Positions 715 to 12,186 of a stretch of 12,186 nt of DNA are shown here, one piece after another. The position numbers were made by a program, and so were the translations under genes. Position 1 is the first letter of the stretch, and every line of letters begins with the position of its first letter. Under the pieces are notes generated by a model. The model worked only from the letters and a program-made list of their open reading frames with translations, searched no databases and was not told the DNA's origin. Origin of the DNA: Clostridia bacterium (GTDB lineage: Bacteria > Bacillota > Clostridia > Christensenellales > UBA1242); contig JALOBO010000040.1 in assembly GCA_023228225.1 (NCBI GenBank), positions 1-12,186 on the forward strand, read 5' to 3'.

Positions 715-1734
715 ATGGAAAATGTGTTTACCCCACAAAAAAAGAATAATATTAGTATGTTCACAATCTTTATGATATTTGTCATATTTTTTACTACAAG
801 CGATTTGGTGGCAAATGTAACGCAAGAACCGATATGGGTGTCCTTATTCTCTATTTTAAGTGGTTTCTTTGTATTTCTTGGCACTGCTTTGAAAAAAAAG
901 CAAAACATAGAAAAAGGCATCAACGCCAAAATAGATTATATAAATAATAATTTTGGTTGGGGTGCGGTAGTCTTATCCACACTAGACATAATATGTAGTT
1001 TAATCGCAATATTTACTACATTGGTGGCACTTGGCGTAATATTTAGAAGTTTATTTGCTTTGCGTTTGATAATAACAATCAACAAAGTAAAACTTCTAGT
1101 ACAAAGTGTGCTATTAGCAATAGTTGGATATTTAACATTGCGATTTGAAAATATAAAATTAAATTTTAAGGAGAGTAAAATGAAATCATTTTTCAAAAAA
1201 ATTTGGAAAGGCATTGTTGCTGGTTTCAAATATGTATTCGTGTCAAATCCACAAGCAAGTTTAGCTACATTAGGAAATGCTTTTTTAAGTGCTACTATTG
1301 GTTATACTGCAAGTATTGATACAATAATTGCTGGTTTGCCAAGTTATATAGGCATTGATATTGTGCCAGTAGCAATATCTATATTGTTATTCATAATAGT
1401 ACAAGTATTTGGTATTAGATGGGCATTTGAAACTAATTCAACTGCTGATGAAAGAAAAACTATAACAAGTGCAGAAAAAGAAAAAATAGCACTTGCAAAA
1501 GCAGAGAAAAAAGCACTTGAAGCACAAGCAAAGAAAGTTGCCGAAGATAAAAAAAAGGCACTTGCACTTGCACAGAAGAAACAAGATGAAGCAAATGCTA
1601 AAATCGCAGAACAACAAGAAGAAGCAAGATTACTCGCTATCGCTGCAAAAATGAAAGCAGATGAAGAAGCAAAGAAAATTGCTGAAACAAAAGTTGAGGT
1701 CATTGTAGAAACACCTACTGACACACAACAATAA
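715..1734 (+). CDS. multi-pass membrane protein with long Ala/Lys/Glu-rich helical tail
   Basis: This is a 339-residue protein with start AAGGAAGTTCATAATATG. The N-terminal half (residues 1-155) has about four hydrophobic segments, near 14-31, 43-60, 80-110 and 118-140. The second half starts again with a basic amphipathic stretch (MKSFFKKIWKG, from residue 156) and then two or three hydrophobic segments (about 185-240). It ends in a roughly 90-residue Ala/Lys/Glu/Gln-rich segment (about 248-330) that should form one long helix or coiled coil, like the TolA shaft in composition only. A perfect internal Shine-Dalgarno site precedes the in-frame Met156, so two products, or a fusion of two former genes, are plausible. 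The gene is directly followed by a strong terminator. No family is recognised. It may be an envelope, tail or superinfection-related membrane protein, but that is a guess. Confidence 0.8.
   Translation: MENVFTPQKKNNISMFTIFMIFVIFFTTSDLVANVTQEPIWVSLFSILSGFFVFLGTALKKKQNIEKGINAKIDYINNNFGWGAVVLSTLDIICSLIAIFTTLVALGVIFRSLFALRLIITINKVKLLVQSVLLAIVGYLTLRFENIKLNFKESKMKSFFKKIWKGIVAGFKYVFVSNPQASLATLGNAFLSATIGYTASIDTIIAGLPSYIGIDIVPVAISILLFIIVQVFGIRWAFETNSTADERKTITSAEKEKIALAKAEKKALEAQAKKVAEDKKKALALAQKKQDEANAKIAEQQEEARLLAIAAKMKADEEAKKIAETKVEVIVETPTDTQQ
1168..1182 (+). promoter_or_regulatory. internal Shine-Dalgarno site and in-frame ATG (Met156)
   Basis: AAGGAG (1168-1173), a 6-base spacer and ATG (1180-1182) form a site as good as that of any gene start here. 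It is in frame with the surrounding 339-codon gene. Initiation here would give a 184-residue protein that starts with a basic amphipathic helix and keeps the second membrane block and the helical tail. The site coincides with the join between two separately arranged hydrophobic regions. Confidence 0.6.
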
Positions 1735-1740
1735 AAAATT

Positions 1741-1774
1741 AAAGAACTACCATTGATTTGGTGGTTCTTTTTTT
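1741..1774 (+). terminator. intrinsic terminator of the + strand genes, possibly bidirectional
   Basis: A 12-bp stem (1741-1752 with 1759-1770, one G-T wobble) with a 6-base loop starts seven bases after the stop codon at 1734 and runs into a T tract ending at 1774. On the opposite strand the same stem (one A-C mismatch) is followed by an interrupted T-rich run. It may therefore also stop the incoming early operon. Confidence 0.9.
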
Positions 1775-1824
1775 ATGCGATTTTGTATATTTATACATTT
1801 TTTTGAATAATTATAAAAAAATTG

Positions 1825-1853
1825 TTGACAAGTATTTATTTTTATGATATGGT
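1825..1853 (+). promoter_or_regulatory. sigma-70 promoter of the + strand small RNA
   Basis: A perfect TTGACA (1825-1830) is followed by a 17-base spacer and TATGGT (1848-1853). A TG at 1845-1846 makes an extended -10 box. An A/T-rich tract lies upstream. Transcription should start near 1860. No protein gene lies downstream on this strand before a terminator. Confidence 0.75.
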
Positions 1854-1908
1854 ATATGTATGAGTTATACTTAAAACTCATTAGACTAGCACAAAGGGGA
1901 TAAACTGT

Positions 1909-1926
1909 ATGTCAAAAGTCACTTGA
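1909..1926 (+). CDS. five-codon mini-ORF (MSKVT) inside the small RNA
   Basis: An ATG with AAAGGGG nine bases upstream opens a frame of five sense codons ending in TGA at 1924-1926, two bases into the 5' arm of the terminator stem. A ribosome here could disturb the terminator or expose the G-rich segment. It may be a chance ORF. No coding signal can be judged at this length. Confidence 0.25.
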   Translation: MSKVT

Positions 1927-1956
1927 AACTGTTCGATTTGAGCAGTTTCTTTTTTT
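1925..1956 (+). terminator. intrinsic terminator of the + strand small RNA
   Basis: A 10-bp stem (GAAACTGTTC 1925-1934 with GAGCAGTTTC 1940-1949, one wobble) with a 5-base loop runs directly into a T tract at 1950-1956. On the opposite strand no T tract follows the stem, so it should act mainly in the + direction. Confidence 0.85.
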
Positions 1957-1981
1957 GTGATTTGAAAATATGAGATTTGTT

Positions 1982-2305
1982 TTATTTTCTATTGATAATT
2001 TTACTTAATTTATATCTTTTTTGCATTAATTCAAGTTCTGCTTGTGAAGTCGGTTGCAATTTATAATATCTTGTACAAAAATTATATTTATAAATATTGA
2101 TACATCTTGCAATTTTCATAATAAATGCAGGGAAAATATGCATTTTAATGCTACGATTTAACACCTTTCTTGTAATATATTCTGGAAGATTGTTTTGTTC
2201 GCAAAACTCGCTAAATTTCAACTTGTTATCTTTCAAATACTTTTTCACAAGCAAAAACAATTGATTGCTTGCTTGGTATTGGTCTTCTTCTTTTTTAAAT
2301 CCCAT
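1982..2305 (-). CDS. small HTH-like protein, possible XRE-type regulator
   Basis: This is a 107-residue protein with start AGAGGAATAAAAAATG, beginning three bases after the stop of the nuclease gene upstream, so it is the last gene of the early operon. Residues 31-71 resemble the helix pattern of Cro/CI-type domains: a first helix FSEFCEQNN, a turn, a second helix ITRKVLNRS, then IARCINI, matching the usual 'kIAkaLgI' end of such domains. The N- and C-termini are basic and polar. The match is to the hydrophobic pattern only; key residues are not conserved enough to be sure. If it is DNA-binding, it could act as a late-expressed regulator of early promoters, but it lacks the position of a classical repressor gene. 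The terminators of this operon and the + strand small RNA lie just beyond it. Confidence 0.75.
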   Translation of the reverse strand: MGFKKEEDQYQASNQLFLLVKKYLKDNKLKFSEFCEQNNLPEYITRKVLNRSIKMHIFPAFIMKIARCINIYKYNFCTRYYKLQPTSQAELELMQKRYKLSKIINRK

Positions 2306-2308
2306 TTT

Positions 2309-2959
2309 TTATTCCTCTTTTAATTTTTTTATTTTTGTTAAAAATGTTTTGCCATATTGTTGTTTCATTTCGTTTCGCCAATAATAGAACATTTTAACTA
2401 GCATAATCTTTGCAAAATTTTTCTTGTTTGGCAAGCATTGTATTCTAAAATCATAACGATTGGCACAACTCCAACTAGATAATGTTGCATAAATTCTTTG
2501 ACCCGCAGTTTGTTGTTTCATTTCATAACCACTAGAATATTCTTTTATACTTTCAAAATCATTGCATTGTTCTATAAACAACCATTTTTCCTTAACACCA
2601 AGTTTACACATAATTCCAAGTTCATATTCTAGATTATCTCTTATTGAATCAGCACCTAAATTATCGAAAAATTCTTTGTTTTCTATTTTTCTTTTTGTTT
2701 CTTTATTTTCATCAGTTAAACACTTATCTACTTCGCATAATGCAAATTTTCGTTCACACAACCAATCATTTCTATAGTCTTTGCCTAATATAACAAATGT
2801 ATAATCGCCAACGGTTAAGTGGTTAGGTTTATACATTTTTTCCCACTTAACCCCAATACTGTCTAAATAATCAGTAATATGCACCACATAATAATCTTTT
2901 TCTTGTGGCGACATTATTATTTTAACATTATCTAAAAAAAATCTTTGTTCGTTTGTCAT
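2309..2959 (-). CDS. ERCC4-like (XPF-type) structure-specific nuclease
   Basis: I chose the start at 2959 (MTNEQRFF), because AGGAG lies seven bases upstream. A Met six codons earlier has no such site and would overlap the upstream gene. The protein has 216 residues. It carries the spaced motif of ERCC4 nuclease domains: GDY (residues 51-53, in LTVGDYTFV), ERK (69-71, in CERKFALCEVD) and acidic residues shortly after. In that family these Asp/Glu/Lys residues bind the metal and cut branched or flapped DNA. A helical, basic region follows (about 110-216) with no clear second domain. No helix-hairpin-helix pair is evident, so it resembles stand-alone phage nucleases more than XPF itself. It lies between a PD-(D/E)XK nuclease and the terminal HTH-like gene, and probably processes recombination or replication intermediates. 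Confidence 0.75.
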   Translation of the reverse strand: MTNEQRFFLDNVKIIMSPQEKDYYVVHITDYLDSIGVKWEKMYKPNHLTVGDYTFVILGKDYRNDWLCERKFALCEVDKCLTDENKETKRKIENKEFFDNLGADSIRDNLEYELGIMCKLGVKEKWLFIEQCNDFESIKEYSSGYEMKQQTAGQRIYATLSSWSCANRYDFRIQCLPNKKNFAKIMLVKMFYYWRNEMKQQYGKTFLTKIKKLKEE

Positions 2960-2970
2960 ATAAACTCCTA
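2955..2970 (-). promoter_or_regulatory. ribosome-binding site deciding the ERCC4-like nuclease start
   Basis: On the - strand AGGAG is followed by seven bases and the ATG at 2959-2957. The motif overlaps the TAG stop of the upstream nuclease gene (2970-2968), which implies translational coupling. It favours this ATG over the in-frame ATG at 2977. Confidence 0.7.
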
Positions 2971-3750
2971 TTTGCACTCACAAAGTTTATCAAGTGCAGA
3001 TCTTGCCTCCGCTTGCAAATCCCAACAAGGAATTACTTTATATTTTGAATTTTCTTCGTTTAACCATACCAAATAACAATCTCCGATTGGTATGCCAAAT
3101 CTTTTCAATATTTCTTTATATATATTAAGTTGCAATGAATAATGTGCGAGTTCGCAATCATCATATTTTTCCATTTCGGCAAATCCAAATTTTTTGTAAT
3201 CACTTTTTGAACGAATTTGTTTTGATGTTTTATAATCCCATATTTCAAGTTTTTGCGATTTCTCATTCCAAACAAGTAAATCTATGTTGCCAGCAATATA
3301 ATCTTGAATACCAACCGTAAATTCGGTTTTAATTGGTATTAATCTACCGTGTGTGTCTTTTGCGAATATATCATACATTGCACAAAGTTTCAAAACTCGT
3401 TCTTTAACTTTTTCTAGTATGTTTTTTTCTTTTGCAATAGAGAAGTCAAATGGAACAACTCGCCCAATTTGTCTATCTTCCGCATATTTATGTACGATAG
3501 TACCCACAATGCTTGCTATATCTGAATTGTTTTGCCAATCATCAAGAACTTGTTGTTGTGGCACTCCATTTTTATTAGCAAATGCAAGACTTATTTTTTC
3601 CTTGTCAAACTCTTCAAAAAAAGTTCCAACAAATTTAGTAACACTTGTTTTTACTTTTTTATCATTATAATAATACTCGTGTGGTTCTTCAAAAAACAAA
3701 TAATCTTTGAATTGTGATAATGCCAACAATGTTTCTTTGTTTAACTCCAT
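2968..3750 (-). CDS. PD-(D/E)XK nuclease, RecB/Cas4-like exonuclease domain
   Basis: This is a 260-residue protein with start AAAAGGATTAAACATG. It shows the full RecB-type nuclease motif set in order: G-x-x-x-H (GTIVHKYAED, His87), Glu143 (KTEF), Asp157 (AGNIDLLV), the D-x-K core (WDYKTSK, Asp172 and Lys174), and the family-specific Q-x-x-x-Y (QLNIY, Gln207 and Tyr211). This is the arrangement of RecB, AddB and Cas4-type nucleases. Only Cys residues characteristic of an Fe-S cluster are not evident in the expected places. A DNA-end exonuclease that generates single strands for the annealing protein is the natural role, given the Bet-type recombinase and SSB in the same operon, as with lambda Exo and Bet. 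The gene starts 15 bases after the preceding stop codon. Confidence 0.85.
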   Translation of the reverse strand: MELNKETLLALSQFKDYLFFEEPHEYYYNDKKVKTSVTKFVGTFFEEFDKEKISLAFANKNGVPQQQVLDDWQNNSDIASIVGTIVHKYAEDRQIGRVVPFDFSIAKEKNILEKVKERVLKLCAMYDIFAKDTHGRLIPIKTEFTVGIQDYIAGNIDLLVWNEKSQKLEIWDYKTSKQIRSKSDYKKFGFAEMEKYDDCELAHYSLQLNIYKEILKRFGIPIGDCYLVWLNEENSKYKVIPCWDLQAEARSALDKLCECK

Positions 3751-3765
3751 GTTTAATCCTTTTAA

Positions 3766-4548
3766 TTAATTAGGTGAAATTTCTTCATTTTTAATAGTTT
3801 CTTGTGTTTTAGTCGCTTCAATTTCAAGTTGTGCTAATTTGTCTTCCAAAGTTTCTTGTGGCACATTAACATCATCTTCAAGTTTAACAATTTCACATAA
3901 ATACTTGTTTATGTTTGGCTCTGGTTTAATATTAATCATAACAATTTTATTACCATATTTTTGTTTGTGTAAATAACAAGTTATTTTTGTTTTTACACCA
4001 ACCAAATTTTTAATCATATTGTATTCGTTTTTATCAAGTCTTAGAACATTTGTTCCATTCCATTCATCTTTGTCGGTGCCAATAGTATCAAAATCAATAT
4101 AGATATTAAGTCCGCCAAGTTTATAAAACATATTTTCACTTGCTTTTTCAACAATAGTATATGTGCCTTTCTTTGCCAATATGTGATATACATACGCATA
4201 TTTTTCAGAATATGGCTTGTTATTTTTATCTTGTTTAATAAGTGAACTATCAACTTTTTTAAGTTTTTCAGCATTATATGTAGCATATCTTATTCTATGT
4301 GGCGAAAATTTTACCTTGTCGCTCAATTGTATTCTATCGCCAATTTCAATTATTTTTTGGTCCCATTCTTCTTTTGTCATATAAAAAACTGCATTGTGAT
4401 ATGTTTTGAATCTTGATCTACCTTTAGTTATCTCGTAAATTTCTCCCCTTGCATAGTAAACTATTGGATCTGAATATTTCCCCTTGCCTTCTGCTTGCAA
4501 ATATTCTAATTGTTTTTTTAATGATACTGTTGTTGGTTGTATTTTCAT
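3766..4548 (-). CDS. unrecognised 260-aa early phage protein
   Basis: The start ATG lies two bases after the stop of the gene upstream, and its Shine-Dalgarno (GAGGAATAATT) overlaps that gene's last codons, so translation is probably coupled. The 260-residue protein is mostly mixed-charge and alternates predicted strands and helices. Recognisable stretches include an N-terminal helix (LKKQLEYLQAEG), an aromatic-rich middle (EKYAYVYHILAKKGTYTIVE), and a stretch ending KIVMINIKPEP. A Glu/Thr-rich, probably disordered tail runs from about residue 225. The beta-rich core and acidic tail recall ssDNA-binding or nuclease-accessory proteins, but I see no diagnostic motif and leave function open. It sits directly upstream of the RecB-like nuclease, so an accessory role in end processing is possible. 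Confidence 0.8.
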   Translation of the reverse strand: MKIQPTTVSLKKQLEYLQAEGKGKYSDPIVYYARGEIYEITKGRSRFKTYHNAVFYMTKEEWDQKIIEIGDRIQLSDKVKFSPHRIRYATYNAEKLKKVDSSLIKQDKNNKPYSEKYAYVYHILAKKGTYTIVEKASENMFYKLGGLNIYIDFDTIGTDKDEWNGTNVLRLDKNEYNMIKNLVGVKTKITCYLHKQKYGNKIVMINIKPEPNINKYLCEIVKLEDDVNVPQETLEDKLAQLEIEATKTQETIKNEEISPN

Positions 4549-4550
4549 AA

Positions 4551-4856
4551 TTATTCCTCATCCTTTTTTTTATTCTTTTTTCTTTGATAACAATTTCTAT
4601 GAATTTCCATAAGTTTTAACTTGCCTTGCTCGGTGCTTTTTAACTTTTTGTTATATTCTTTTGAATATTCTATATCTCGTTTATATCTTTCTGGATATTT
4701 CTTTCTTTCTTGTGCCTTTAGGAAAGCATTTAATTTTCGTTTTTCATCTGCATTTAACTCCCTATTTCTTTTTCCGAACATTATATAACTCACACTTTTA
4801 GTATAGTGTGGAACTTTTTCTGCCGAATATTTTGTTAATTTTTTTTTGTTTTCCAT
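4551..4856 (-). CDS. small, highly basic protein, probably nucleic-acid binding
   Basis: This 101-residue protein has start AAAAGGAGAAATTATG, one of the best sites in the window. It is very rich in Lys, Arg and Glu. From about residue 38 it looks like one or two long helices with YPERYKRDIEYSKEYNKKLK spacing, a Tyr/Lys pattern often seen in DNA-binding tails of phage proteins. It ends in a Lys-rich run (QRKKNKKKDEE). There are no membrane segments, and a single Cys lies near residue 89. It precedes the 260-residue unknown by two bases and follows a 146-base gap without an evident gene. The composition suggests binding to DNA or RNA, but I cannot name a family. Confidence 0.75.
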   Translation of the reverse strand: MENKKKLTKYSAEKVPHYTKSVSYIMFGKRNRELNADEKRKLNAFLKAQERKKYPERYKRDIEYSKEYNKKLKSTEQGKLKLMEIHRNCYQRKKNKKKDEE

Positions 4857-5002
4857 AATTTCTCCTTTTACATATATTGTTTTTGCCCATTTTAAGCAAA
4901 TCCTAGCGACTTTTGTTGTAGACTTGATACATTTATCACAAACATTACTAAAATCGTTGGATTGTGCCTATTTTGCCATAATTTTGACACAATGTATAGC
5001 AA

Positions 5003-5665
5003 CTATATCTCAATTATCAAATTTTTATTCGCTATGTGAACATCATCACAATATTTTGACACCATTTTTAATATTTTTTTTGAATCACAATGTCCGCTAT
5101 TGCTAAGATGTGAACATATCACTTTGGGAACTTTATAATTTAGTCCATTCAAATAGTTTACAACTTGTTGCACACTTAAATGATGTATATATCCATTGTT
5201 TAATATGGCATTTTTACTTGATTGCTCGAAAATAATATCTTCATCGTAATTTGTATCTATTACTAAACAATCCATATTAGATATTTGTGGTATATATGTT
5301 GTGTCGGTAATATATGCAATTTTCTTTTTGTCAATTTTGCTATAAATTAGAAACCCAAAACATTCTATATTGTGTACTAACTGCATTGGCAATATTCGCC
5401 AAAACGGTATATCAATCAATTCGCCACTTTTTATATTATCTGGTTCATAAATATCAACACCAACAAGTTCATAATTTTTTTTGTATTTGCAATGATCGTT
5501 GTGATAATGAGTTATCAATAAGCACGACAATTTCTTAAAATTTATATAAGTGTTAGTTTTTTTATAATCAACACCACAATCTAATAATATTTGATTGCCT
5601 TGACTATCAGTTAATATTGCCGAATTTCCATCACTGCCAGAATTTATAAAGTTTAAACTTGCCAA
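5003..5665 (-). CDS. metallo-beta-lactamase-fold hydrolase, YycJ-like
   Basis: This 220-residue protein has all the metal ligands of the MBL fold. HxHxDH appears as THYHNDH (His53, His55, Asp57, His58). A later His lies in QLVHNIECFGF, the bridging Asp in YITDTTYIP, and the final His in CSHLSNSGH. The opening SGSDGNSAIL followed by LLDCG is typical of the YycJ/WalJ-type branch, which phages often carry near RecT or Bet genes. Members act as exonucleases or phosphodiesterases, so it is probably a nucleic-acid hydrolase, though the substrate is unknown. The start codon appears to be TTG (5665-5663), preceded by AAAGGGGA; no ATG fits the frame before the conserved core. It has its own promoter at 5729-5701 and so begins a sub-operon. 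An SbcD-type calcineurin fold is excluded by the HxHxDH motif. Confidence 0.88.
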   Translation of the reverse strand: MASLNFINSGSDGNSAILTDSQGNQILLDCGVDYKKTNTYINFKKLSCLLITHYHNDHCKYKKNYELVGVDIYEPDNIKSGELIDIPFWRILPMQLVHNIECFGFLIYSKIDKKKIAYITDTTYIPQISNMDCLVIDTNYDEDIIFEQSSKNAILNNGYIHHLSVQQVVNYLNGLNYKVPKVICSHLSNSGHCDSKKILKMVSKYCDDVHIANKNLIIEI

Positions 5666-5680
5666 AATTTTCCCCTTTTT
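5661..5680 (-). promoter_or_regulatory. ribosome-binding site AAAGGGGA with TTG start
   Basis: On the - strand AAAAAGGGGA lies five bases before TTG (5665-5663). It is a G-rich variant of the AAAGGAG sites used by nearly every other gene here. Its GGGGA is complementary to UCCCC in the predicted hairpin loop of the small RNA encoded just upstream. Confidence 0.6.
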
Positions 5681-5700
5681 ATATATTATCTACAATTATT

Positions 5701-5729
5701 AGTATAACATAATATATATAATTTGTCAA
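5701..5729 (-). promoter_or_regulatory. sigma-70 promoter of the MBL-fold hydrolase sub-operon
   Basis: On the - strand TTGACA (5729-5724), a 17-base spacer and TATACT (5706-5701) with TGT just before form an extended -10 promoter. The start of transcription is expected near 5694, giving a leader of about 30 nt before the TTG start codon. Confidence 0.85.
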
Positions 5730-5780
5730 GTAATTTTTGATATTTGTGGTAGTTTTTATTGCTAATATATGTGAAATATT

Positions 5781-5803
5781 AAAAAACACACCATAAAGGT
5801 GTG
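5781..5803 (-). terminator. intrinsic terminator of the - strand small RNA
   Basis: CACACC and GGTGTG form a 6-bp stem with a 5-base loop, followed by six T residues on the - strand (plus-strand A run 5781-5786). It separates the small-RNA unit from the MBL-fold gene promoter downstream. Confidence 0.85.
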
Positions 5804-5889
5804 AATTTTAACCCATTCTATTTTGGGGATAGACTGGGAATGAAAAATTTACTTAAAATAACTAAATTTTTCAAAAATTAGTATAACAC
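5781..5889 (-). ncRNA. predicted small RNA of about 105 nt, C-rich partner
   Basis: This is a complete unit on the - strand: a consensus promoter (-35 at 5924-5919, -10 at 5901-5896, alternative -10 at 5885-5880) leads to a terminator at 5803-5781, with no ORF of note between. The start would be near 5889, or near 5873 from the second -10 box. The RNA holds CAGTCTATCCCC (5836-5825). Its TAT pairs within a predicted hairpin (CTAT 5832-5829 with ATAG 5821-5818, extended by CATT with AATG), leaving CCCCAAA as the loop. C-rich loops of this sort are a known way for bacterial small RNAs to bind Shine-Dalgarno sequences. Candidate targets are the G-rich segment of the + strand small RNA (11 of 12 complementary) and, more weakly, the GGGGA site of the adjacent MBL-fold gene. 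No known RNA family is recognised. Confidence 0.6.
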
Positions 5890-5911
5890 AATATTCTTAT
5901 AACACAATATT
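5880..5911 (-). repeat. 16-bp tandem direct repeat spanning two -10 boxes
   Basis: On the - strand AATATTGTGTTATAAG (5911-5896) is followed at once by AATATTGTGTTATACT (5895-5880), identical at 14 of 16 positions. It may be an operator for a regulator or a promoter duplication that changes the start site. Confidence 0.85.
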
Positions 5912-5924
5912 ATATGTTTGTCAA
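5880..5924 (-). promoter_or_regulatory. sigma-70 promoter of the - strand small RNA, with duplicated -10 region
   Basis: TTGACA (5924-5919), a 17-base spacer and TATAAG (5901-5896), with TGT immediately before, give a strong extended -10 promoter. Sixteen bases further on the same context recurs with TATACT (5885-5880). The sequence around the -35 and the final TATACTAAT match those of the MBL-fold gene promoter 195 bases away, so the two promoters look related by duplication. Confidence 0.8.
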
Positions 5925-6070
5925 GTATTTTTTAAATATTTTTTATAAAAGTTTGGCATTTCACGATTTCCCCAAGAAACTTTTCTGCCTTTTAATTTGT
6001 CATTTTCCCATTTTGTAATTAGTTTAGATTGGAATAATGCAGAAACATTTTCAGTGGTTCTTTTATACCT
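5921..6070 (-). pseudogene. C-terminal remnant of a second pyrimidine-dimer glycosylase
   Basis: This open frame of 49 codons (no ATG; closed upstream by TAG at 6079-6077) ends in TGA at 5923-5921. Its translation, starting RTTENVSALFQSKLITKW, matches residues 130-147 of the intact glycosylase encoded 400 bases upstream (RTTKNVSQLFRDKLIKKW) at 13 of 18 positions. Similarity then fades through a W-containing C-terminus of the same length. The N-terminal catalytic part is absent. The fragment begins exactly where the 133-aa gene stops, overlapping it by eight bases in another frame. It therefore looks like the leftover of a tandem duplication that was cut down when the 133-aa gene arrived or was rearranged. 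Its stop codon lies inside the -35 box of the small-RNA promoter. It is unlikely to be expressed as protein. Confidence 0.8.
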
Positions 6071-6464
6071 GATTTTCTAAATCTAAAAATTCCCTTATTT
6101 TACAAACAATTTTATCTTCTATGCCATATACTGAATGGCAAACAGCCTTTTTATTTATAAATTTTTCTATTTCTTTATAATTTGCCTTTCTTACATATTT
6201 TAATTGAGGATCGCAAAACCATGCAGAGCAATATCCTGTCGTCAAGTCAAACACCTCATATTTGCCATAATTATCTCCCCAAAATTTCTGTGCGTAAGAC
6301 CCTGCAATAATACAAGTATTTTTAATAATCTTTTCTTGTACTTTAATTTTATTACATTGACCAATTCTAATTTCCGTATCACAATAACATAAAATACAAA
6401 CATCTCCAACTTGAAGTTTTTGTTTAGGTTCATATAATTCTTTTAAAAGTTTATCATATTTCAT
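6063..6464 (-). CDS. unrecognised 133-aa early protein, Cys-rich
   Basis: The start ATG directly abuts the TAA of the glycosylase gene (TAAATG), with AAGGAAAAAT upstream, so the two are translationally coupled. The 133 residues include seven Cys, none in a clean paired CxxC zinc motif: ILCYC near 24-28, then scattered ones. The N-terminal third (LQVGDVCILCYC, then IRIGQCNKI) has the alternating pattern of a small beta barrel of the kind that begins 'VGD-V'. The C-terminus is helical (KIVCKIREFLDLE). No family is recognised. Its fixed position behind a UV-repair glycosylase could mean a linked role, but a glycosylase fragment follows it, so it may have been inserted here. Expression depends on the upstream promoter. 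Confidence 0.75.
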   Translation of the reverse strand: MKYDKLLKELYEPKQKLQVGDVCILCYCDTEIRIGQCNKIKVQEKIIKNTCIIAGSYAQKFWGDNYGKYEVFDLTTGYCSAWFCDPQLKYVRKANYKEIEKFINKKAVCHSVYGIEDKIVCKIREFLDLENQV

Positions 6465-6998
6465 TTATTTTTCCTTAAATTTTAAAAATTCTTTTGCCCA
6501 AGAAGGACAACCCCAACCAGCCCATTTTGGCGGTCTATTTTTTTCAATGTCCGCTTGCCATTTTTTAATTAATTTATCTCTAAACAATTGTGATACATTT
6601 TTAGTTGTTCTAATACAATTTGGTGAATCTTTATTGCCTTCCATATAATATGGCACAAATTTTGGTATTTGCATTGAACTAATATAACCATCATCATATT
6701 CAAACATATTAAAGTCGTTCATTATATTATCAAAATATTGTGTTAAAGATTGCCATTTTTTATTTCTATAATAATATTCTCTGCAACACTCGTACCCATA
6801 ATATGCTAAAAATTCAAGATTGTCTTTATAGAATAAATACACTGGGTGGTGCGAATGTCCTTTAATAATCTCGCCATTTTTTTCTTTTATTGCCGAAGTC
6901 AATAGTTGATAGCACTCAACTATTTGTTTATTAAGTCTAACATTGTCAATGCTTTCTACTGATTTTTTTATAGATGAATAAGGCATAAATATGTTCAT
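6465..6998 (-). CDS. pyrimidine-dimer DNA glycosylase, T4 endonuclease V-like
   Basis: This is a 177-residue protein with start AGGAGTGTTAAATG. It matches the Pyr_excise family (T4 DenV and its bacterial and phage relatives). The opening MNIFMPYSSI with DNVRLNKQIVECYQLL is typical of the MSMEG_6728-like branch. The segment HHPVYLFYKDNLEFL (residues 50-64) parallels HVTFFYDKLEFL in T4 DenV. Glu28 in QIVECYQLL is a candidate for the catalytic Glu23 of DenV. The C-terminus (SQLFRDKLIKKW to RPPKWAGWG) parallels the DenV ending ARLDEKIAQRPTWYKYYG. The family removes cyclobutane dimers by cutting the glycosidic bond and then the backbone. It sits between the annealing protein and a 133-aa unknown. 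A truncated paralogue lies just downstream. The loop around residues 85-128 is longer than in DenV. Confidence 0.85.
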   Translation of the reverse strand: MNIFMPYSSIKKSVESIDNVRLNKQIVECYQLLTSAIKEKNGEIIKGHSHHPVYLFYKDNLEFLAYYGYECCREYYYRNKKWQSLTQYFDNIMNDFNMFEYDDGYISSMQIPKFVPYYMEGNKDSPNCIRTTKNVSQLFRDKLIKKWQADIEKNRPPKWAGWGCPSWAKEFLKFKEK

Positions 6999-7023
6999 TT
7001 AACACTCCTATTTTTGTATTTTA

Positions 7024-7953
7024 TTATTTTAATTTAACCTTGATAGTTCTTGTCGTTGGATCGTATGAACTTTTTCCATCTTCATTATTAACCTTAATAT
7101 ATTTATCAAGATTGTTTTTATAATCGTTATAATCAATCACAATTATGTTTGTGGGATTGAAACTGCTTGGGTCATTAACAATTGGTTCACTACACAAAAA
7201 ATCACTTTCAATATCGCCTTGTTCTACTGTTGGTGTTTCAATGTCTTGACAAGTTTCAACAATCACATCATCAACAACTGTATCATCTATATCATATATT
7301 TGATTTGCCACATTGACTTTTTCTTCACTTGCATTTTCAATAACATTTGAGTTTTTTATTTCATCTTCTTCATATAATCCATTTAATGCTTTAGGGAATG
7401 CTTTTCTAATTGCTGAAACTTTGGCACATTTGTTTATCATAGTTGAACTTAATGTATTCCAAGTTGATTGACTTTTAGAATATTCCTTTAATGCCAATCT
7501 TGCAATTGTTGGAATTCTGCGATCAGAACGATAAACTTTTGCCCAACCACCAATTAGTGTTTCTTTTGGATATAGTACACAACCCACTCTATCAACAATT
7601 TTGCCATCAGCAGTCTGAACTATAATTCCATCTTCAATGCCTTCGTATTTTGGGTGTTCTTCAGCAATTCTCATAAAAGCACCGATAGATGTTATCATTT
7701 GGCAAGGTTTAGAATTGTCGTATTTTACCATTTGAAGTTCTTTCAAGAATGGGTTTAATTTTTGATATTTACACATTTCAATAAACAATTGAATTTCGCC
7801 TTGAGTGATAAATTCATTATTGTTAGTCAAGTTCCTAATCGCTGATTCGGTTAGTTGCACATTGCTACCATCCCCCATTTTATAACTTACTATCTCTTTG
7901 TTTTGTGTTGTAAGTTCTTTTTTATTTTCAGTTTTTGTTTCTACTTTTTCCAT
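7024..7953 (-). CDS. bet: Bet/RecT-type single-strand annealing protein
   Basis: This is a 309-residue protein with start AAAGGAGAAATTATG. Residues about 50-200 follow the phage Bet family closely: an opening helix GEIQLFIEMCKYQKLNPFLKE, then the QMITSIGAFMRIAEEHPKYEG block, and the family-typical ending MINKCAKVSAIRKAFPKALNGLYEEDE. These proteins bind ssDNA exposed by an exonuclease and anneal it to complementary strands, forming rings and filaments. The gene lies 31 bases downstream of SSB in the same direction, a common phage arrangement. The C-terminal 110 residues are an acidic linker followed by a short basic end (about 268-309, ending KVKLK). They are not part of the core and may bind SSB or the nuclease partner. 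The exonuclease partner is probably the RecB-like nuclease encoded further on. Confidence 0.92.
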   Translation of the reverse strand: MEKVETKTENKKELTTQNKEIVSYKMGDGSNVQLTESAIRNLTNNNEFITQGEIQLFIEMCKYQKLNPFLKELQMVKYDNSKPCQMITSIGAFMRIAEEHPKYEGIEDGIIVQTADGKIVDRVGCVLYPKETLIGGWAKVYRSDRRIPTIARLALKEYSKSQSTWNTLSSTMINKCAKVSAIRKAFPKALNGLYEEDEIKNSNVIENASEEKVNVANQIYDIDDTVVDDVIVETCQDIETPTVEQGDIESDFLCSEPIVNDPSSFNPTNIIVIDYNDYKNNLDKYIKVNNEDGKSSYDPTTRTIKVKLK

Positions 7954-7984
7954 AATTTCTCCTTTAATTTTAATATATCATTAT

Positions 7985-8389
7985 TTAGAACGGTAAATTG
8001 TCATCATCGAGTGCAATTGTTTCTTTTTTCTCTATAACTTTTTCTTCTGCTTTAGTTTCAATTTTTTCGTATTTGTTTACAATTTCACCAAAACCGTTAG
8101 AAACTGTAATAAAATCAATCATAATTGAAGCATATTCTTTGCCATTATATTCACGAGTTTCTTTTTTGCCAGCAACGAAAACACTTTTGCCCTTTGGGAT
8201 TGTAGCTACAACATCGAACAACGGTTTGAAACATTTAGCATTATAAAATAAATTCTCGCCATTTTCTCCCTTGCCATATATTATAGAAAATTCTGCTAGC
8301 GGTGTTTGCTTTTCTCCAATTTTTTTCATTTTAATATTACTAATTGCACCACTTGCAATTATTGTGCCATCTTTAAGTTCTATTTTCAT
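7985..8389 (-). CDS. ssb: single-stranded DNA-binding protein
   Basis: I chose the ATG at 8389 because AAAAAAGGAGAG lies just upstream. A longer in-frame reading from 8446 adds 19 residues without family resemblance and would overlap the previous gene far more. The 134-residue protein has an OB fold: strands around IASGAISNIKMK, LAEFSIIYGKG, YNAKCFKP, then KGKSVFVAGKKETREY and YASIMIDFITV, in the order of bacterial SSB. A short acidic linker leads to the conserved tip DDDNLPF, which binds partner proteins in SSBs generally. Initiation overlaps the end of the upstream membrane-anchored gene by 17 bases. The protein protects single strands and should work with the annealing protein that follows. 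Confidence 0.93.
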   Translation of the reverse strand: MKIELKDGTIIASGAISNIKMKKIGEKQTPLAEFSIIYGKGENGENLFYNAKCFKPLFDVVATIPKGKSVFVAGKKETREYNGKEYASIMIDFITVSNGFGEIVNKYEKIETKAEEKVIEKKETIALDDDNLPF

Positions 8390-8885
8390 TATTCTCTCCT
8401 TTTTTAATTTTATGGTCTTTGCCTTTATCAGCAATACCATCAGCATAACCTTCTAAATAATAAGGTTCAAGTTCTTGCAACTTATCATATTCTTTAATGA
8501 TTTCATCATAATTTTCAAGTTTTTCATATTTTTCTTCAAATTTATCGCCATATCTTTTACTTTTGAAACCGTTGTTTTTCTTGCGAAGGATTTTACTTAC
8601 CTTAATATCATTTACTTGCATTTGTGAAAAAGAGTTTATAATTGGAAAACCATATATAGTATTATAACCTTGTGTTGCTTTAATGTTATTCTCCAATGCC
8701 AAGTCTTTCCATTTTTGTACTTCTTCTTGCAATAGTTTGTTAGTTTCTTTTAATTGTTGGTTTTCTAGTATTAGTTTCCCCTTTTTAGTTTTTGATATAA
8801 AATTACTACCGCATAGATATAAACTAATACTGGCAAAAATTGCCACACCACATATTATAACTAAGAAAATATCAATAAGACTCAT
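8373..8885 (-). CDS. membrane-anchored coiled-coil protein, 170 aa
   Basis: The start ATG overlaps the TGA of the zinc-ribbon gene upstream (ATGA), with AAAGGAG seven bases ahead. Residues 4-26 form one N-terminal membrane segment (IDIFLVIICGVAIFASISLYL), followed by Lys-rich residues that predict a cytoplasmic C-terminus. A coiled coil spans about 36-66 (ENQQLKETNKLLQEEVQKW). The rest is charged, with the segment EPYYLEGYADGIADKG near 140-156. The Y-x-x-G-Y-x-D-G pattern recurs in small phage early proteins of unknown role. The last 17 bases overlap the SSB start. A role as a membrane tether for phage DNA or for the replication machinery is possible but unproven. No enzymatic motif is visible. 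Confidence 0.75.
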   Translation of the reverse strand: MSLIDIFLVIICGVAIFASISLYLCGSNFISKTKKGKLILENQQLKETNKLLQEEVQKWKDLALENNIKATQGYNTIYGFPIINSFSQMQVNDIKVSKILRKKNNGFKSKRYGDKFEEKYEKLENYDEIIKEYDKLQELEPYYLEGYADGIADKGKDHKIKKGENNENRT

Positions 8886-9694
8886 AATTTATCTCCTTTA
8901 ACTTTTTTTACCATATCGGTAGAATAAGCCCAATTTGTATAACCTTTTTCTTTAAAATCTCTCAACTTTATTTCTCTATCATCATATATTTTTTCAATAG
9001 TCGCATAAGTACCGCATAAATATTCCATTTTTTCAGTAAAATATATAGAAGAATTTATAAATCCATCTTCATTCAATCCAAGCTCTTTTTCCATTTCTTC
9101 CCAAGTCTTAAATTGCACTCTGTCGCCGACCTTAAATTTGGTGTTGTTTTCTTTAATTGCTATTTTTTCAAGTTCCAACTTTTTGATTTTATCTTTTATT
9201 TGTTTATTTTTCTCAAAAAGTTCTTTGATTTTTTGTATATCTTTTGGTGTCTTTTTGATAAATTCATTCAAATAATAATTTATAATATCAAAATTATCAT
9301 TATTAAAATTTTCGCAATTCACAAGTTGTTTAATATTTTCAAAGAACTTTGCTTGTAAGTCAACATTAAGAGATTTTTCTTTTTCGGTCCCAAACAAATT
9401 CCAAAAACTTTCTTGTTTAAGTCTACAAATTGATTTTTGAATTTCTGTTTGTATTTCATAATCAAGGTCGTCTGCATTTAATTTTATTATTAATGGCACA
9501 CTTTGTTTAAGTTTTCCATTTTCCGATTGCAATTTCGTTATCAATTTGTCTTTTTCTTTGCATAGAATATAATAATCATTTGAGCCAATTGCCAACTTTG
9601 AAATATATTCAGCATAACACATAGGGCACATATTAAACCCACCTACAACAGTTATACTACTGCCACTTTTCCCACAATAATCACAAATAAACAT
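8882..9694 (-). CDS. zinc-ribbon protein with SH3-like C-terminal domain
   Basis: This is a 270-residue protein with start GGAGGTAAAGTAAATTATG. Residues 4-26 hold two CxxC pairs (CDYC and CPMC), a compact N-terminal zinc ribbon. A long mixed-charge helical region follows (about 40-180, with probable coiled coil at NKQIKDKIKKLELEKIAIKE). The C-terminal 85 residues start KFKVGDRVQFKTWEEMEKEL and include EYLCGTYATIEKI. Short phage proteins often carry this 'GD-V-VKSWEEM...YLCG' domain on its own, probably a small beta-barrel fold. The combination suggests a nucleic-acid or protein scaffold rather than an enzyme. It lies between two genes for N-terminally membrane-anchored proteins in the same transcript, with a four-base ATGA overlap to the downstream one. 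Function is not established. Confidence 0.75.
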   Translation of the reverse strand: MFICDYCGKSGSSITVVGGFNMCPMCYAEYISKLAIGSNDYYILCKEKDKLITKLQSENGKLKQSVPLIIKLNADDLDYEIQTEIQKSICRLKQESFWNLFGTEKEKSLNVDLQAKFFENIKQLVNCENFNNDNFDIINYYLNEFIKKTPKDIQKIKELFEKNKQIKDKIKKLELEKIAIKENNTKFKVGDRVQFKTWEEMEKELGLNEDGFINSSIYFTEKMEYLCGTYATIEKIYDDREIKLRDFKEKGYTNWAYSTDMVKKVKGDKL

Positions 9695-9740
9695 AATTTA
9701 CTTTACCTCCAATAAAAATTTATCATAATCATTAAATAAT

Positions 9741-10307
9741 TTATTTCTTTTTCTTACTTTCACAATATTTATCTAATGTCGCTTGTTTTTCTTCATATTT
9801 TTTCAATATTCTGTTAAATGTTTCTATATAATCGACATCAATAGAATTTTCAAAGAAGTAATTATATATATAAAAATCATAGTTTTTTATCGAATTAATT
9901 ATTTCATCCATAGTAAACATAATTCCGCCATAATTATATTTTTCCTTTTTAAAATCTTTGATTAATTCTTTGTTTTTTAATTTTCCAACAAATTTAGTCT
10001 TAATTAAATAATCACGAATTTTAATATTTTCTTTGAATTTTTGAAAATCTTCTTTTTGCATTATCAGTTGATATTCTTGATTTGAAAACCTATATTTAAG
10101 TTCATTGATTTCTTCTAACATTTCTTTTTTAGTCATTTTAATTCTCTCCTTTTTTCTTTCCATTCTTTCTTTTCTTTTGTTTAGTTTTTTAAGTATTCTA
10201 TAAGATTTAGATGTTTGTGGCGGATACATAATAATAACATTTATTATAAGTAAAAACACAATAAATAAAAGCCAAAAACAAAATGCTATTATTTCAATAA
10301 TATTCAT
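9741..10307 (-). CDS. membrane-anchored helical protein, 188 aa
   Basis: The start is preceded by AAAAGGAGTTGAATT, and the gene is the first after a strong promoter. Residues 3-28 are one hydrophobic segment (IIEIIAFCFWLLFIVFLLIINVII), followed by a very basic stretch (about 34-56, rich in Lys/Arg) that predicts the C-terminus in the cytoplasm. The rest is helical and charged, with no recognisable domain. Met58 (MTKKEMLEEINEL) is preceded by a second complete Shine-Dalgarno site, so a 131-residue form without the anchor is likely. The architecture, one anchor plus a helical soluble part, mirrors that of the 170-aa protein downstream, though the sequences are not clearly related. A 46-base gap separates it from the zinc-ribbon gene. 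Confidence 0.72.
   Translation of the reverse strand: MNIIEIIAFCFWLLFIVFLLIINVIIMYPPQTSKSYRILKKLNKRKERMERKKERIKMTKKEMLEEINELKYRFSNQEYQLIMQKEDFQKFKENIKIRDYLIKTKFVGKLKNKELIKDFKKEKYNYGGIMFTMDEIINSIKNYDFYIYNYFFENSIDVDYIETFNRILKKYEEKQATLDKYCESKKKK
10134..10150 (-). promoter_or_regulatory. internal Shine-Dalgarno site and in-frame ATG (Met58)
   Basis: On the - strand AAGGAGAG (AGGAG at 10150-10146), a nine-base spacer and ATG (10136-10134) lie in frame inside the 188-codon gene. The sequence closely resembles the SSB gene's site. Initiation here would skip the membrane segment and the basic linker. Confidence 0.6.
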
Positions 10308-10332
10308 AATTCAACTCCTTTTAATTCTTTTC

Positions 10333-10361
10333 AATATACCACATTTTATATGATTTGTCAA
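10333..10361 (-). promoter_or_regulatory. sigma-70 promoter of the middle early operon
   Basis: On the - strand TTGACA (10361-10356), a 17-base spacer and TATATT (10338-10333), preceded by TGG, give a near-consensus extended -10 promoter. Transcription should start near 10326, 19 bases before the ATG at 10307, and probably drives the genes down to at least the 133-aa gene at 6063. Confidence 0.85.
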
Positions 10362-10400
10362 GCGAAATTTACAAATTTGCTTATTTTATATTTATATAGA

Positions 10401-12186
10401 TTAACCTACTATGCAATCTTGCAATGTATAAATTTGGTCTATTCTAGATATTTTCAAATTGTTTTCAAGTGATGTGATTAATTCAACAATTTGACTTTCG
10501 CTTGCAAAATTTATTGTTGTAGATTGTCTTTCATCAACAAACACAAAGCAATCAACGCCCAATATTTTCCTAAATGCCACACCTACCAAGAAATCGCAAA
10601 TAATTTTTTGACCAGTTGAACTTTGTGAATATATTGTTTTTGTTGGGTTATAAATACAAGTGCAGTCGTTTTCAAAAGGATTTGATGCGTTTGCTCCCAA
10701 CAATTTAAACATACTAAACGAAACACCATCAAAATTTTTGTTTATTTCTTCATTAACAATGCTAATTTTTTCTTGTATATAATCATTAAGTACATTTTGT
10801 TTTTTCGCCCTAAGATTATCCTTATCGGCAATTTCTTTATTCGCATTTTTAAGCGATTGAATTTCAGATTTGATGTTGTTAAAAATTGTTTCTTTGTACA
10901 ATTTGGCGATTGTAATATCGTATTCGTTTTGTAATTCAATGAGTTTGTCGCTTACTGTGGTATCTTGCGTTTCGTTTTCACTTTTTGAAATTGCAATATT
11001 TAAAGTGTCTATATCAATTTTCAATTTATCTATTTCAGATTTATCATACACCAATTCGTTTAACTCATTTAACTGCGTTTCTAGCGATTTTAACTCATCG
11101 GTTAATACAATCTTCCTATTTGTAGAGTTTTCAATCTCTATGGCATTGTTTTGCACCTTTAATCGCATATCATCAAGTGATTTTGTTTTATTATCATTAA
11201 ATTCGGTTATTATTTTTTCTTTTTGTGCAGTTTCAAACTCTCTATGGCAAGTAGGACAAACGGTTTTTTCTTTATCTAGTTCCATTTTTTCAATATCTGC
11301 AATTTCAACTTGCAAGTCTTCATTTTCACTTTCAATTCGTGCAACTTTTGAGTTTATAAATTCAATGTCATTTTCAGTTTGCCTAATCTTCGATTTGATA
11401 GCACCAATATTTTTGTCGTGATCGTATTCCCAATCTTGATATTCACGATTTTTTGAATTTAACTGTGATTGCAATTTTTCTATTTCTTGCAAATTTGTTT
11501 TGGTTAATTCATTTTTGTTTGTAGTTTCACTTGATTGTTGCATTTTTTGTATTTCATTTTGCAATTTTTCTTTTTTTGCCTTGATAATAGTAAAGTCCAA
11601 TCCCGAATATTGTGCCAACTCGTTTGTCTTGTTATCAAACAATATTTTGTTTCGTTGCATTTCTTTTTCATTGCCAAGTTTTTCTGCATTAATCATTTTT
11701 TGTATGTCAATCTCGGTTTTATCTTTTTTCAAATCTTCTTTTAGTAATTCATATTGTGGTTTTTCAGCAAGTGTGCCTACAAATTTGTCAATTTCTAATA
11801 AATCAAATAATGTCTTTCGTTGAATTTTCCAATCTAAATTATTAAACATTTTGCCATCAACAAGCATATTTATATAATCATACTTGCAGTTAAACAACAA
11901 TGCAACTCGGTCGCAATAGTTTGTTTTTGACATTTCAACACCATCAAAATTGTAAACTGAATCGTTGCCAACAAAATATTTCTCGTTGGTTTCTTTATCA
12001 GTCTTGAATTTTTGCTCAGAAATCCTTGTTAATATATATTCAGTGCCATTTACAATTAATGATAATTGAACCTTTGTGGTTAAGTCTTTGATAACAAAAT
12101 TGTTTATGCTAGGATATATTTCGTTTGGATTTAACCCAAGAGCGAAAAGCACAGCGGACATAATTGATGTTTTCCCACCGCCAGAT
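10401..12186 (-). CDS. SbcC/Rad50-like SMC-type ATPase, 5'-partial at window edge
   Basis: The frame stays open to the window edge and already encodes SGGGKTSIM there (codons upstream of 12161). That is the end of a Walker A motif, so the true start lies outside and the Met at 12161 is internal. At least 594 residues are visible. Numbered from that Met, long coiled coils (about 140-290 and 310-470) flank a zinc-hook CPTC (302-305). The C-terminal lobe has a signature-like SSTGQK (513-518) and Walker B CFVFVDE (539-545 region). This is the head-coil-hook-coil-head layout of Rad50, SbcC and T4 gp46. Such proteins pair with an Mre11/SbcD-type nuclease to process DNA ends. No such nuclease is in this window, and it may lie just upstream. 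The sequence is short for SbcC, consistent with phage homologues. Confidence 0.88.
   Translation of the reverse strand, partial: SGGGKTSIMSAVLFALGLNPNEIYPSINNFVIKDLTTKVQLSLIVNGTEYILTRISEQKFKTDKETNEKYFVGNDSVYNFDGVEMSKTNYCDRVALLFNCKYDYINMLVDGKMFNNLDWKIQRKTLFDLLEIDKFVGTLAEKPQYELLKEDLKKDKTEIDIQKMINAEKLGNEKEMQRNKILFDNKTNELAQYSGLDFTIIKAKKEKLQNEIQKMQQSSETTNKNELTKTNLQEIEKLQSQLNSKNREYQDWEYDHDKNIGAIKSKIRQTENDIEFINSKVARIESENEDLQVEIADIEKMELDKEKTVCPTCHREFETAQKEKIITEFNDNKTKSLDDMRLKVQNNAIEIENSTNRKIVLTDELKSLETQLNELNELVYDKSEIDKLKIDIDTLNIAISKSENETQDTTVSDKLIELQNEYDITIAKLYKETIFNNIKSEIQSLKNANKEIADKDNLRAKKQNVLNDYIQEKISIVNEEINKNFDGVSFSMFKLLGANASNPFENDCTCIYNPTKTIYSQSSTGQKIICDFLVGVAFRKILGVDCFVFVDERQSTTINFASESQIVELITSLENNLKISRIDQIYTLQDCIVG

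Follow-up and report, generated by a model that had tools for sequence, protein, structure and literature searches.

Two short promoter-to-terminator units, one on each strand and each in its own gap of a little-known phage, raise the question of whether the small RNAs predicted from them serve each other or act independently. They lie on contig JALOBO010000040.1 of a Clostridia bacterium, within a window (here meaning the whole stretch of DNA analysed) of 12,186 bases and 28% G+C, which we infer to be phage DNA, the labels "early" and "late" used below being of the same kind. Unit A (+ strand, about 1860-1956) occupies the junction between a gene group that is read rightward (3-1734) and an early-type operon that is read leftward toward it (12161-1982). 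Within the early region lies unit B (− strand, about 5889-5781). Noting that a G-rich segment of A matches a C-rich segment of B, a first-pass annotation of this DNA had proposed that the two RNAs form a trans-acting pair. The explanation we prefer, with a probability of about 0.5, is that A and B are independent small-RNA genes, with B acting like the known small RNAs that carry a UCCC motif in a loop and A being a short accessory transcript.

The architecture of the two units was evaluated with a scan, run on the window as well as on 300 dinucleotide shuffles, that asked for a terminator 40-110 bases after a promoter with at least 10 of 12 matches. Two units were returned from the window, precisely A and B, and at least one unit was seen in 2 of the 300 shuffles and at least two in none (0/300), with thresholds that had been chosen after the units had been seen. 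Thus, the arrangement reported by the first-pass annotation, two promoter-to-terminator units with one per strand, exceeds chance. An earlier promoter listing had demanded a T at the last −10 position and hence left out the TATAAG box of B. Each unit possesses its own promoter and its own intrinsic terminator in a non-coding gap, as a stand-alone small-RNA gene should, and these sequence features make it well supported that A and B are candidate phage small-RNA genes, ordinary in kind.

In the mechanism we propose, A and B would each be transcribed from their own sigma-A-type promoter to their own terminator. The predicted promoter of A on the + strand (TTGACA at 1825-1830, 17 nucleotides, TATGGT at 1848-1853) has 10 of 12 matches with a TG ahead of the −10 box, and the predicted RNA of about 97 nucleotides (1860-1956) consists of a 5' hairpin (1860-1881), a G-rich middle and a terminator hairpin (1925-1956), the latter with an 11-bp stem (1925-1949) followed by T7. 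On the − strand, the promoter of B (TTGACA at 5924-5919, 17 nucleotides, TATAAG at 5901-5896) lies within a 42-nucleotide direct repeat and would lead to an RNA of about 109 nucleotides (5889-5781) composed of an A+T-rich hairpin, a C-loop hairpin and a terminator hairpin (5781-5803; 6-bp stem at 5803-5787, then T6). The start site of B is uncertain because a second −10-like box, TATACT, is found 16 bases further on. The computed folds are −24.9 kcal/mol for A (z −3.72) and −28.9 kcal/mol for B (z −5.83, or −4.78 from a start at 5900), neither being equalled by any of 200 shuffles, although these low energies are in part owing to the terminators.

The C-loop hairpin of B, CCCA-g-UCUAU[CCCCAAA]AUAGA-a-UGGG (5812-5838, − strand, loop bracketed), is where B would make its contacts. 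It folds with −8.6 kcal/mol (2/200 shuffles as good) and includes the C segment, CAGTCTATCCCC (5836-5825), which the first-pass annotation had placed in a hairpin loop; this is correct for the CCCC, whereas 7 of the 8 other bases of the segment are in the stem. The CCCC is essentially free, with a computed opening cost of 0.002 kcal/mol, and the U sits in the closing pair. In the sections of two papers that deal with them, UCCC motifs of RNAIII, RsaE, SprD, FsrA and LhrC are described as contacting Shine-Dalgarno or other start signals (PMC3861533, PMC4132741). Judged by analogy, with the motif of B likewise accessible in a loop, B is probably an anti-ribosome-site RNA that works via its open CCCC loop. 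The loop and its closing U would touch the G-rich ribosome-binding site of at least one mRNA and slow its translation. B resembles RNAIII, RsaE, LhrC and FsrA in having a C-rich loop motif that can pair with G-rich ribosome-binding sites, and differs in being phage-encoded, with a single loop, a U in the closing pair, targets that are predicted only, and no Rfam match at threshold. If true, a strategy familiar from bacteria, the blocking of ribosome-binding sites by a C-loop RNA, would be found in phage control as well.

A candidate target of B is the gene immediately downstream, which encodes a metallo-beta-lactamase-fold protein (5003-5665, − strand) and has the ribosome-binding site AAAAAGGGGAAAA before a TTG start; it provides the best loop match in the window, and host mRNAs would be equally likely targets. 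When B was compared with 17 start regions of the window, UCCCC:GGGGA pairing at this gene ranked second with −4.2 kcal/mol and was the best-placed predicted match for the loop; it is slightly better than the −3.3 kcal/mol for A and B in the same scoring.

The complementarity between A and B exists, but how much it counts varies with the test used: the G segment GGGGATAAACTG (1896-1907) and CAGTCTATCCCC do pair at 11 of 12 positions as had been annotated, and a second block, AACTCATT with AATGGGTT, is also complementary with one G-U pair. The raw duplex has an energy of −32.1 kcal/mol, equalled by 17 of 500 shuffles (20/500 without the terminators), and A is paired as strongly by 36 of 591 window pieces. 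A simple ungapped score was reached in 150 of 1000 shuffles and in 1120 of 6641 window-piece pairs. Among 12 other listed G4 sites (11 distinct stretches, 7875 and 7876 being one run; A and B's own antisense aside), none extended above 5/8 around the G4/C4 anchor. Once folding was counted, in a simplified scheme of our own rather than a published program, the interaction fell to −3.3 kcal/mol, a value reached by 158 of 400 shuffles and by 200 of 400 if B alone was shuffled. The structure-aware interaction is weak because opening the 12-mer costs 8.2 kcal/mol in B and 4.4 kcal/mol in A. The co-folding gain of A with B (−3.6) was likewise reached by 410 of 500 shuffles (406/500 without the terminators), and the window pieces that pair at least as well made up 62 of 484 for A and 94 of 484 for B, their own antisense included. 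The RNA-RNA interaction prediction suggested by the first-pass annotation is thus marginally in favour of a dedicated pair by raw complementarity and does not support it with folding counted, and pairing above that of shuffles with structure counted, the mark of a sponge pair, was not seen. Much of the G/C match is to be expected between an anti-Shine-Dalgarno loop and a G-rich ribosome-binding site; the segment of A, which looks to be of that kind, would largely fit a C-loop anyway.

Several results weigh against independent genes with B as an anti-ribosome-site RNA. The start region ranked first (gene 2309-2962, −5.8 kcal/mol) pairs with the 5' end of B and not with its loop, three further start regions score −4.0 to −4.2 kcal/mol likewise through the 5' end, and 2 of the 17 start regions are doubtful (the genes at 3 and 12161, at the window edges). 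Because the loop match does not stand apart from matches made via the 5' end, we regard the downstream gene as a lead and not as a target call. In addition, the raw duplex of A with B is equalled by no more than 8 of 588 window pieces tried against B, and an extension of 6 of 7 matches to either side of the G4/C4 anchor is unusual (P about 0.008). Close relatives for the place of B were not found in the viral contigs, the genome contigs and the 396 genomes searched with a neighbour-gene alignment, and four distant relatives (neighbouring gene 28-30% identical) had no such unit in the stretches scanned. The 8/588 result, which favours a pair, and the start regions that fail to separate, which count against our preferred explanation, are small, opposite pulls.

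A dedicated pair would make A a decoy, sponge or target mimic for B, or would have B silence A, and would tie an early-region RNA to the late/early junction. It gains from the 11 of 12 pairs, the second block, the raw duplex counts and the anchor extension, but the structure-aware shuffles and window pieces offset these, and A is missing from the one syntenic relative; we consider it unlikely. Its more specific form, a two-RNA timing circuit in which A at the junction would titrate the early-region B and free the mRNA targets of B, we hold to be doubtful. We know of no precedent for a sponge RNA operating within one phage, and that claim exceeds what the present evidence carries. Chance likeness, with two unrelated short transcripts of which one has a ribosome-binding site and one a C-rich loop, neither being such a regulator, we think improbable too, though less so than a dedicated pair. 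The pattern GGGGATARACTG occurs twice in the window with up to 2 mismatches, at least two occurrences being found in 22 of 200 shuffles; the ungapped score is, as said, reached by 150 of 1000 shuffles; and an exact 19-mer of A recurs in the ssb genes of two viral contigs, while the anchor extension and the 17/500 raw duplex speak the other way. Chance likeness and our preferred explanation agree in their view of A-B pairing.

The first-pass annotation had offered a shared, protein-bound motif in the DNA itself as its alternative, and the same two copies bear on it. On the + strand such a motif would read AACYCATT ... GGGGATARACTG ... ATG, and the protein could be that of the phage or of its host. 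Both copies run the same way on that strand with the AACYCATT block upstream in each. However, they are oppositely oriented relative to the two promoters and lie tens of bases inside the transcripts, the copy number of two is, as said, not above chance, and among 36 loci an exact copy exists only in two (L001 and L002), in ssb genes in both cases; a shared protein-binding motif is therefore very improbable.

We return to the preferred explanation and to the role it gives to A. The G segment is present as annotated and overlaps AAAGGGG, which stands 9 nucleotides ahead of an ATG at 1909 that opens a 5-codon frame, MSKVT (1893-1926 in all, + strand, stop at 1924-1926). The ATG-started frames within A are MSYT and MSKVT, and no toxin-like peptide is encoded in A. 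From its sequence, the segment looks like an ordinary ribosome-binding site, and A would be a short accessory transcript with a ribosome-binding-site-like stretch and a 5-codon frame. As a DNA query, A found matches in 10 of 297 genomes from one family, that of G001 (to which the contig of the syntenic relative belongs), the best being the start of a thymidine kinase gene (locus L028; Pfam TK, E 7.4e-36) with 22 of 24 bases and the same 9-nucleotide spacing from GGGG to ATG; since its E value is 0.0024 per genome, with about 0.7 such matches expected in 297, we read it as likeness and not descent.

The search of relatives called for by the first-pass annotation gave one syntenic relative for the place of A and, for the neighbour of B, distant relatives only. 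The former, a 5.4-kb Clostridia bacterium contig in genome G001 (L007), has the same late/early junction, with 77% identity in the late gene, 67% in the exonuclease, 64% in the nuclease and 44% in the helix-turn-helix (HTH) gene. Its junction gap comprises 61 nucleotides with one terminator-like hairpin, versus 247 nucleotides with A in the window, and the unit scan of its 5.4 kb returned no promoter-terminator unit. A is absent from this gap, and thus is accessory or was lost there.

Trans-encoded type I toxin-antitoxin systems consist of two separately encoded RNAs with short complementarity over a ribosome-binding site. A and B likewise have separate predicted genes and a short complementarity at what looks like a ribosome-binding site, but the frame of A has only 5 codons and A lacks a toxin-like peptide. 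The model proposed for A, a phage RNA mimicking the target of another small RNA, is like that of AgvB, a prophage anti-sRNA (anti-small-RNA) of enterohaemorrhagic E. coli, which is reported in a review to act on the host small RNA GcvB (PMC12197685). The putative A-B action, by contrast, would take place within one phage.

A further possibility, that A and B are RNA anti-CRISPRs (Racr), lone CRISPR-repeat mimics that tie up the Cas proteins of the host, starts from their layout, since a short phage-borne hairpin RNA behind a promoter recalls Racr and solitary repeat units. In addition, a type I-E repeat variant in print ends, at its 3' side, in GGGGATAAACTG (PMC9754226; also PMC8847753), and B aligns with the Leptotrichia Cas13a repeat over 31 columns. 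In a comparison with 7 printed repeats, 0 of 1000 shuffles did as well as the best score of A and 4 of 1000 as well as that of B, or 12 (A) and 8 (B) of 1000 with 11 further repeats added. However, this lead was noticed after the fact, and 4 of 404 (A) and 7 of 404 (B) window pieces score as well, pieces that overlap the units included. A type VI-A model made from six repeats (three of them from print) is less biased than the repeat-score comparison; on the window it placed B 8th of 27 (E 2.4) and left the motif of A unmatched, one match (E 7.3) overlapping only the promoter and 5' end of A. The 5' arm of the repeat hairpin is absent from A, no CRISPR family was among the Rfam matches, and neither unit attained 90% identity over a whole repeat among the 7 printed and 11 further ones. 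The Racr paper, in the part that bears on this, reports candidates for every type but VI and a finder that applies a 90% identity rule (PMC10651486). The type VI-A model gave nothing on G001, a result that shows little by the tool's own statement, and no CRISPR array was among the matches listed from the 297-genome DNA searches with A and B. CRISPR-repeat mimicry is thus unsupported, and we consider it the most improbable of the explanations.

Both units represent well-delimited candidates with strong promoters, and their genomic setting is as follows. The genes of the leftward operon encode an exonuclease, RecT, a pyrimidine-dimer glycosylase, a protein resembling SSB (an assignment that scores under the Pfam cut-off) and the metallo-beta-lactamase-fold protein. 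We infer from the one relative that the phage host is probably an A+T-rich Clostridia-like bacterium. No tRNA was found by a scan of the window, no Rfam family matched the whole window up to E 1, and PADLOC matched 0 of 6 proteins. Rfam on the units alone gave 5 and 9 matches with E values of at most 10, none of which came near its gathering score.

Protein queries with the metallo-beta-lactamase-fold, RecT, nuclease, exonuclease and glycosylase proteins yielded only the four distant relatives among viral contigs, in whose records the motif was not found with up to 1 mismatch, and among genome contigs L007 was the sole relative found. A nuclease alignment matched 3 of 391, 2 of 197 and 1 of 398 whole genomes (E limits 0.001, 0.001 and 1e-15), with G001 in each, and a metallo-beta-lactamase-fold alignment matched 0 of 396 at E 1e-20. 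Protein relatives are present in metagenomes, several with longest contigs of 20-105 kb, and RecT matched 123 phage records, every one below 60% identity.

DNA searches gave short likenesses. The exact 19-mer of A in two viral contigs was rejected as a relative, both copies being inside ssb genes (Pfam SSB E 2.1e-34 in the one tested) with an unrelated layout, and an exact 17-mer of the hairpin of B was absent from the viral contigs searched. The DNA of window 4900-12186 matched 1 phage record, in the promoter region only. That of 1700-5999 matched no plasmid and, at E 1, 63 phage records, of which the best 20 lay nearly all in A+T-rich promoter stretches. With B as query, 24 phage and 13 plasmid records were returned, and with A, 5 and 0; every match among those listed was short and had an E value of 0.2 or worse. 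B matched 188 of the 297 genomes at E 0.01, and among the matches listed these were almost all to the promoter end plus the A+T-rich 5' hairpin, or to the terminator. One match (G405, query 76-107), covering most of the C-loop part, belongs to a long open frame, and the sequence it has in common with B is chiefly that following the loop. The pattern GGGGATARACTG with 1 mismatch was found in 1 of 5 records (G001, two places), equal to the reversed control, and a full-text literature search for the segment strings gave, by title, no paper on this phage.

A different locus, the 18.8-kb second half of contig G325:C1 (L015), has two promoter-terminator units of its own at 8276-8355 (+) and 13084-13007 (−), unrelated in sequence to A and B, and carries a distant relative of the nuclease (28% identity); the unit scan gave 0 units in eight other loci.

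Promoters of the TTGACA-17-nucleotide kind occur in four intergenic gaps of the window (10361-10333, 5924-5896 and 5729-5701 on the − strand and 1825-1853 on the + strand) and are perhaps the main phage promoters within this stretch. That of the metallo-beta-lactamase-fold gene (TTGACA-17 nucleotides-TATACT, 5701-5729, − strand, 11 of 12 matches) is separate from that of B. Of the 16 start regions having upstream sequence (the one at 12161 is probably spurious), only that of this gene, with its apparent TTG start, has a GGGG ribosome-binding site. The promoters of B (5892-5933) and of this gene (5697-5738) form the 42-base direct repeat, 76% identical and 195 bases apart, which suggests that a promoter duplication may have been the origin of B. 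Within the promoter of B, another short duplication, in tandem, gives two −10-like boxes.

Just upstream of unit B, an open stretch on the − strand (5921-6070, RYKRTTENVSALFQSKLITKW...YKKYLKNT) is, by eye, like the C-terminal consensus of relatives of the pyrimidine-dimer-glycosylase gene (6465-6998) and looks like the remnant of a second glycosylase copy. Pfam found no glycosylase match in this stretch, with a model that covered only the N-terminal part of the full copy. The stop of the stretch falls within the −35 box of unit B. Finally, where the converging gene groups meet, a hairpin with a T-run in the late-gene direction is seen both in the window (1741-1770) and in the syntenic relative (L007:2536-2596), and the sequences of the two hairpins appear unrelated.

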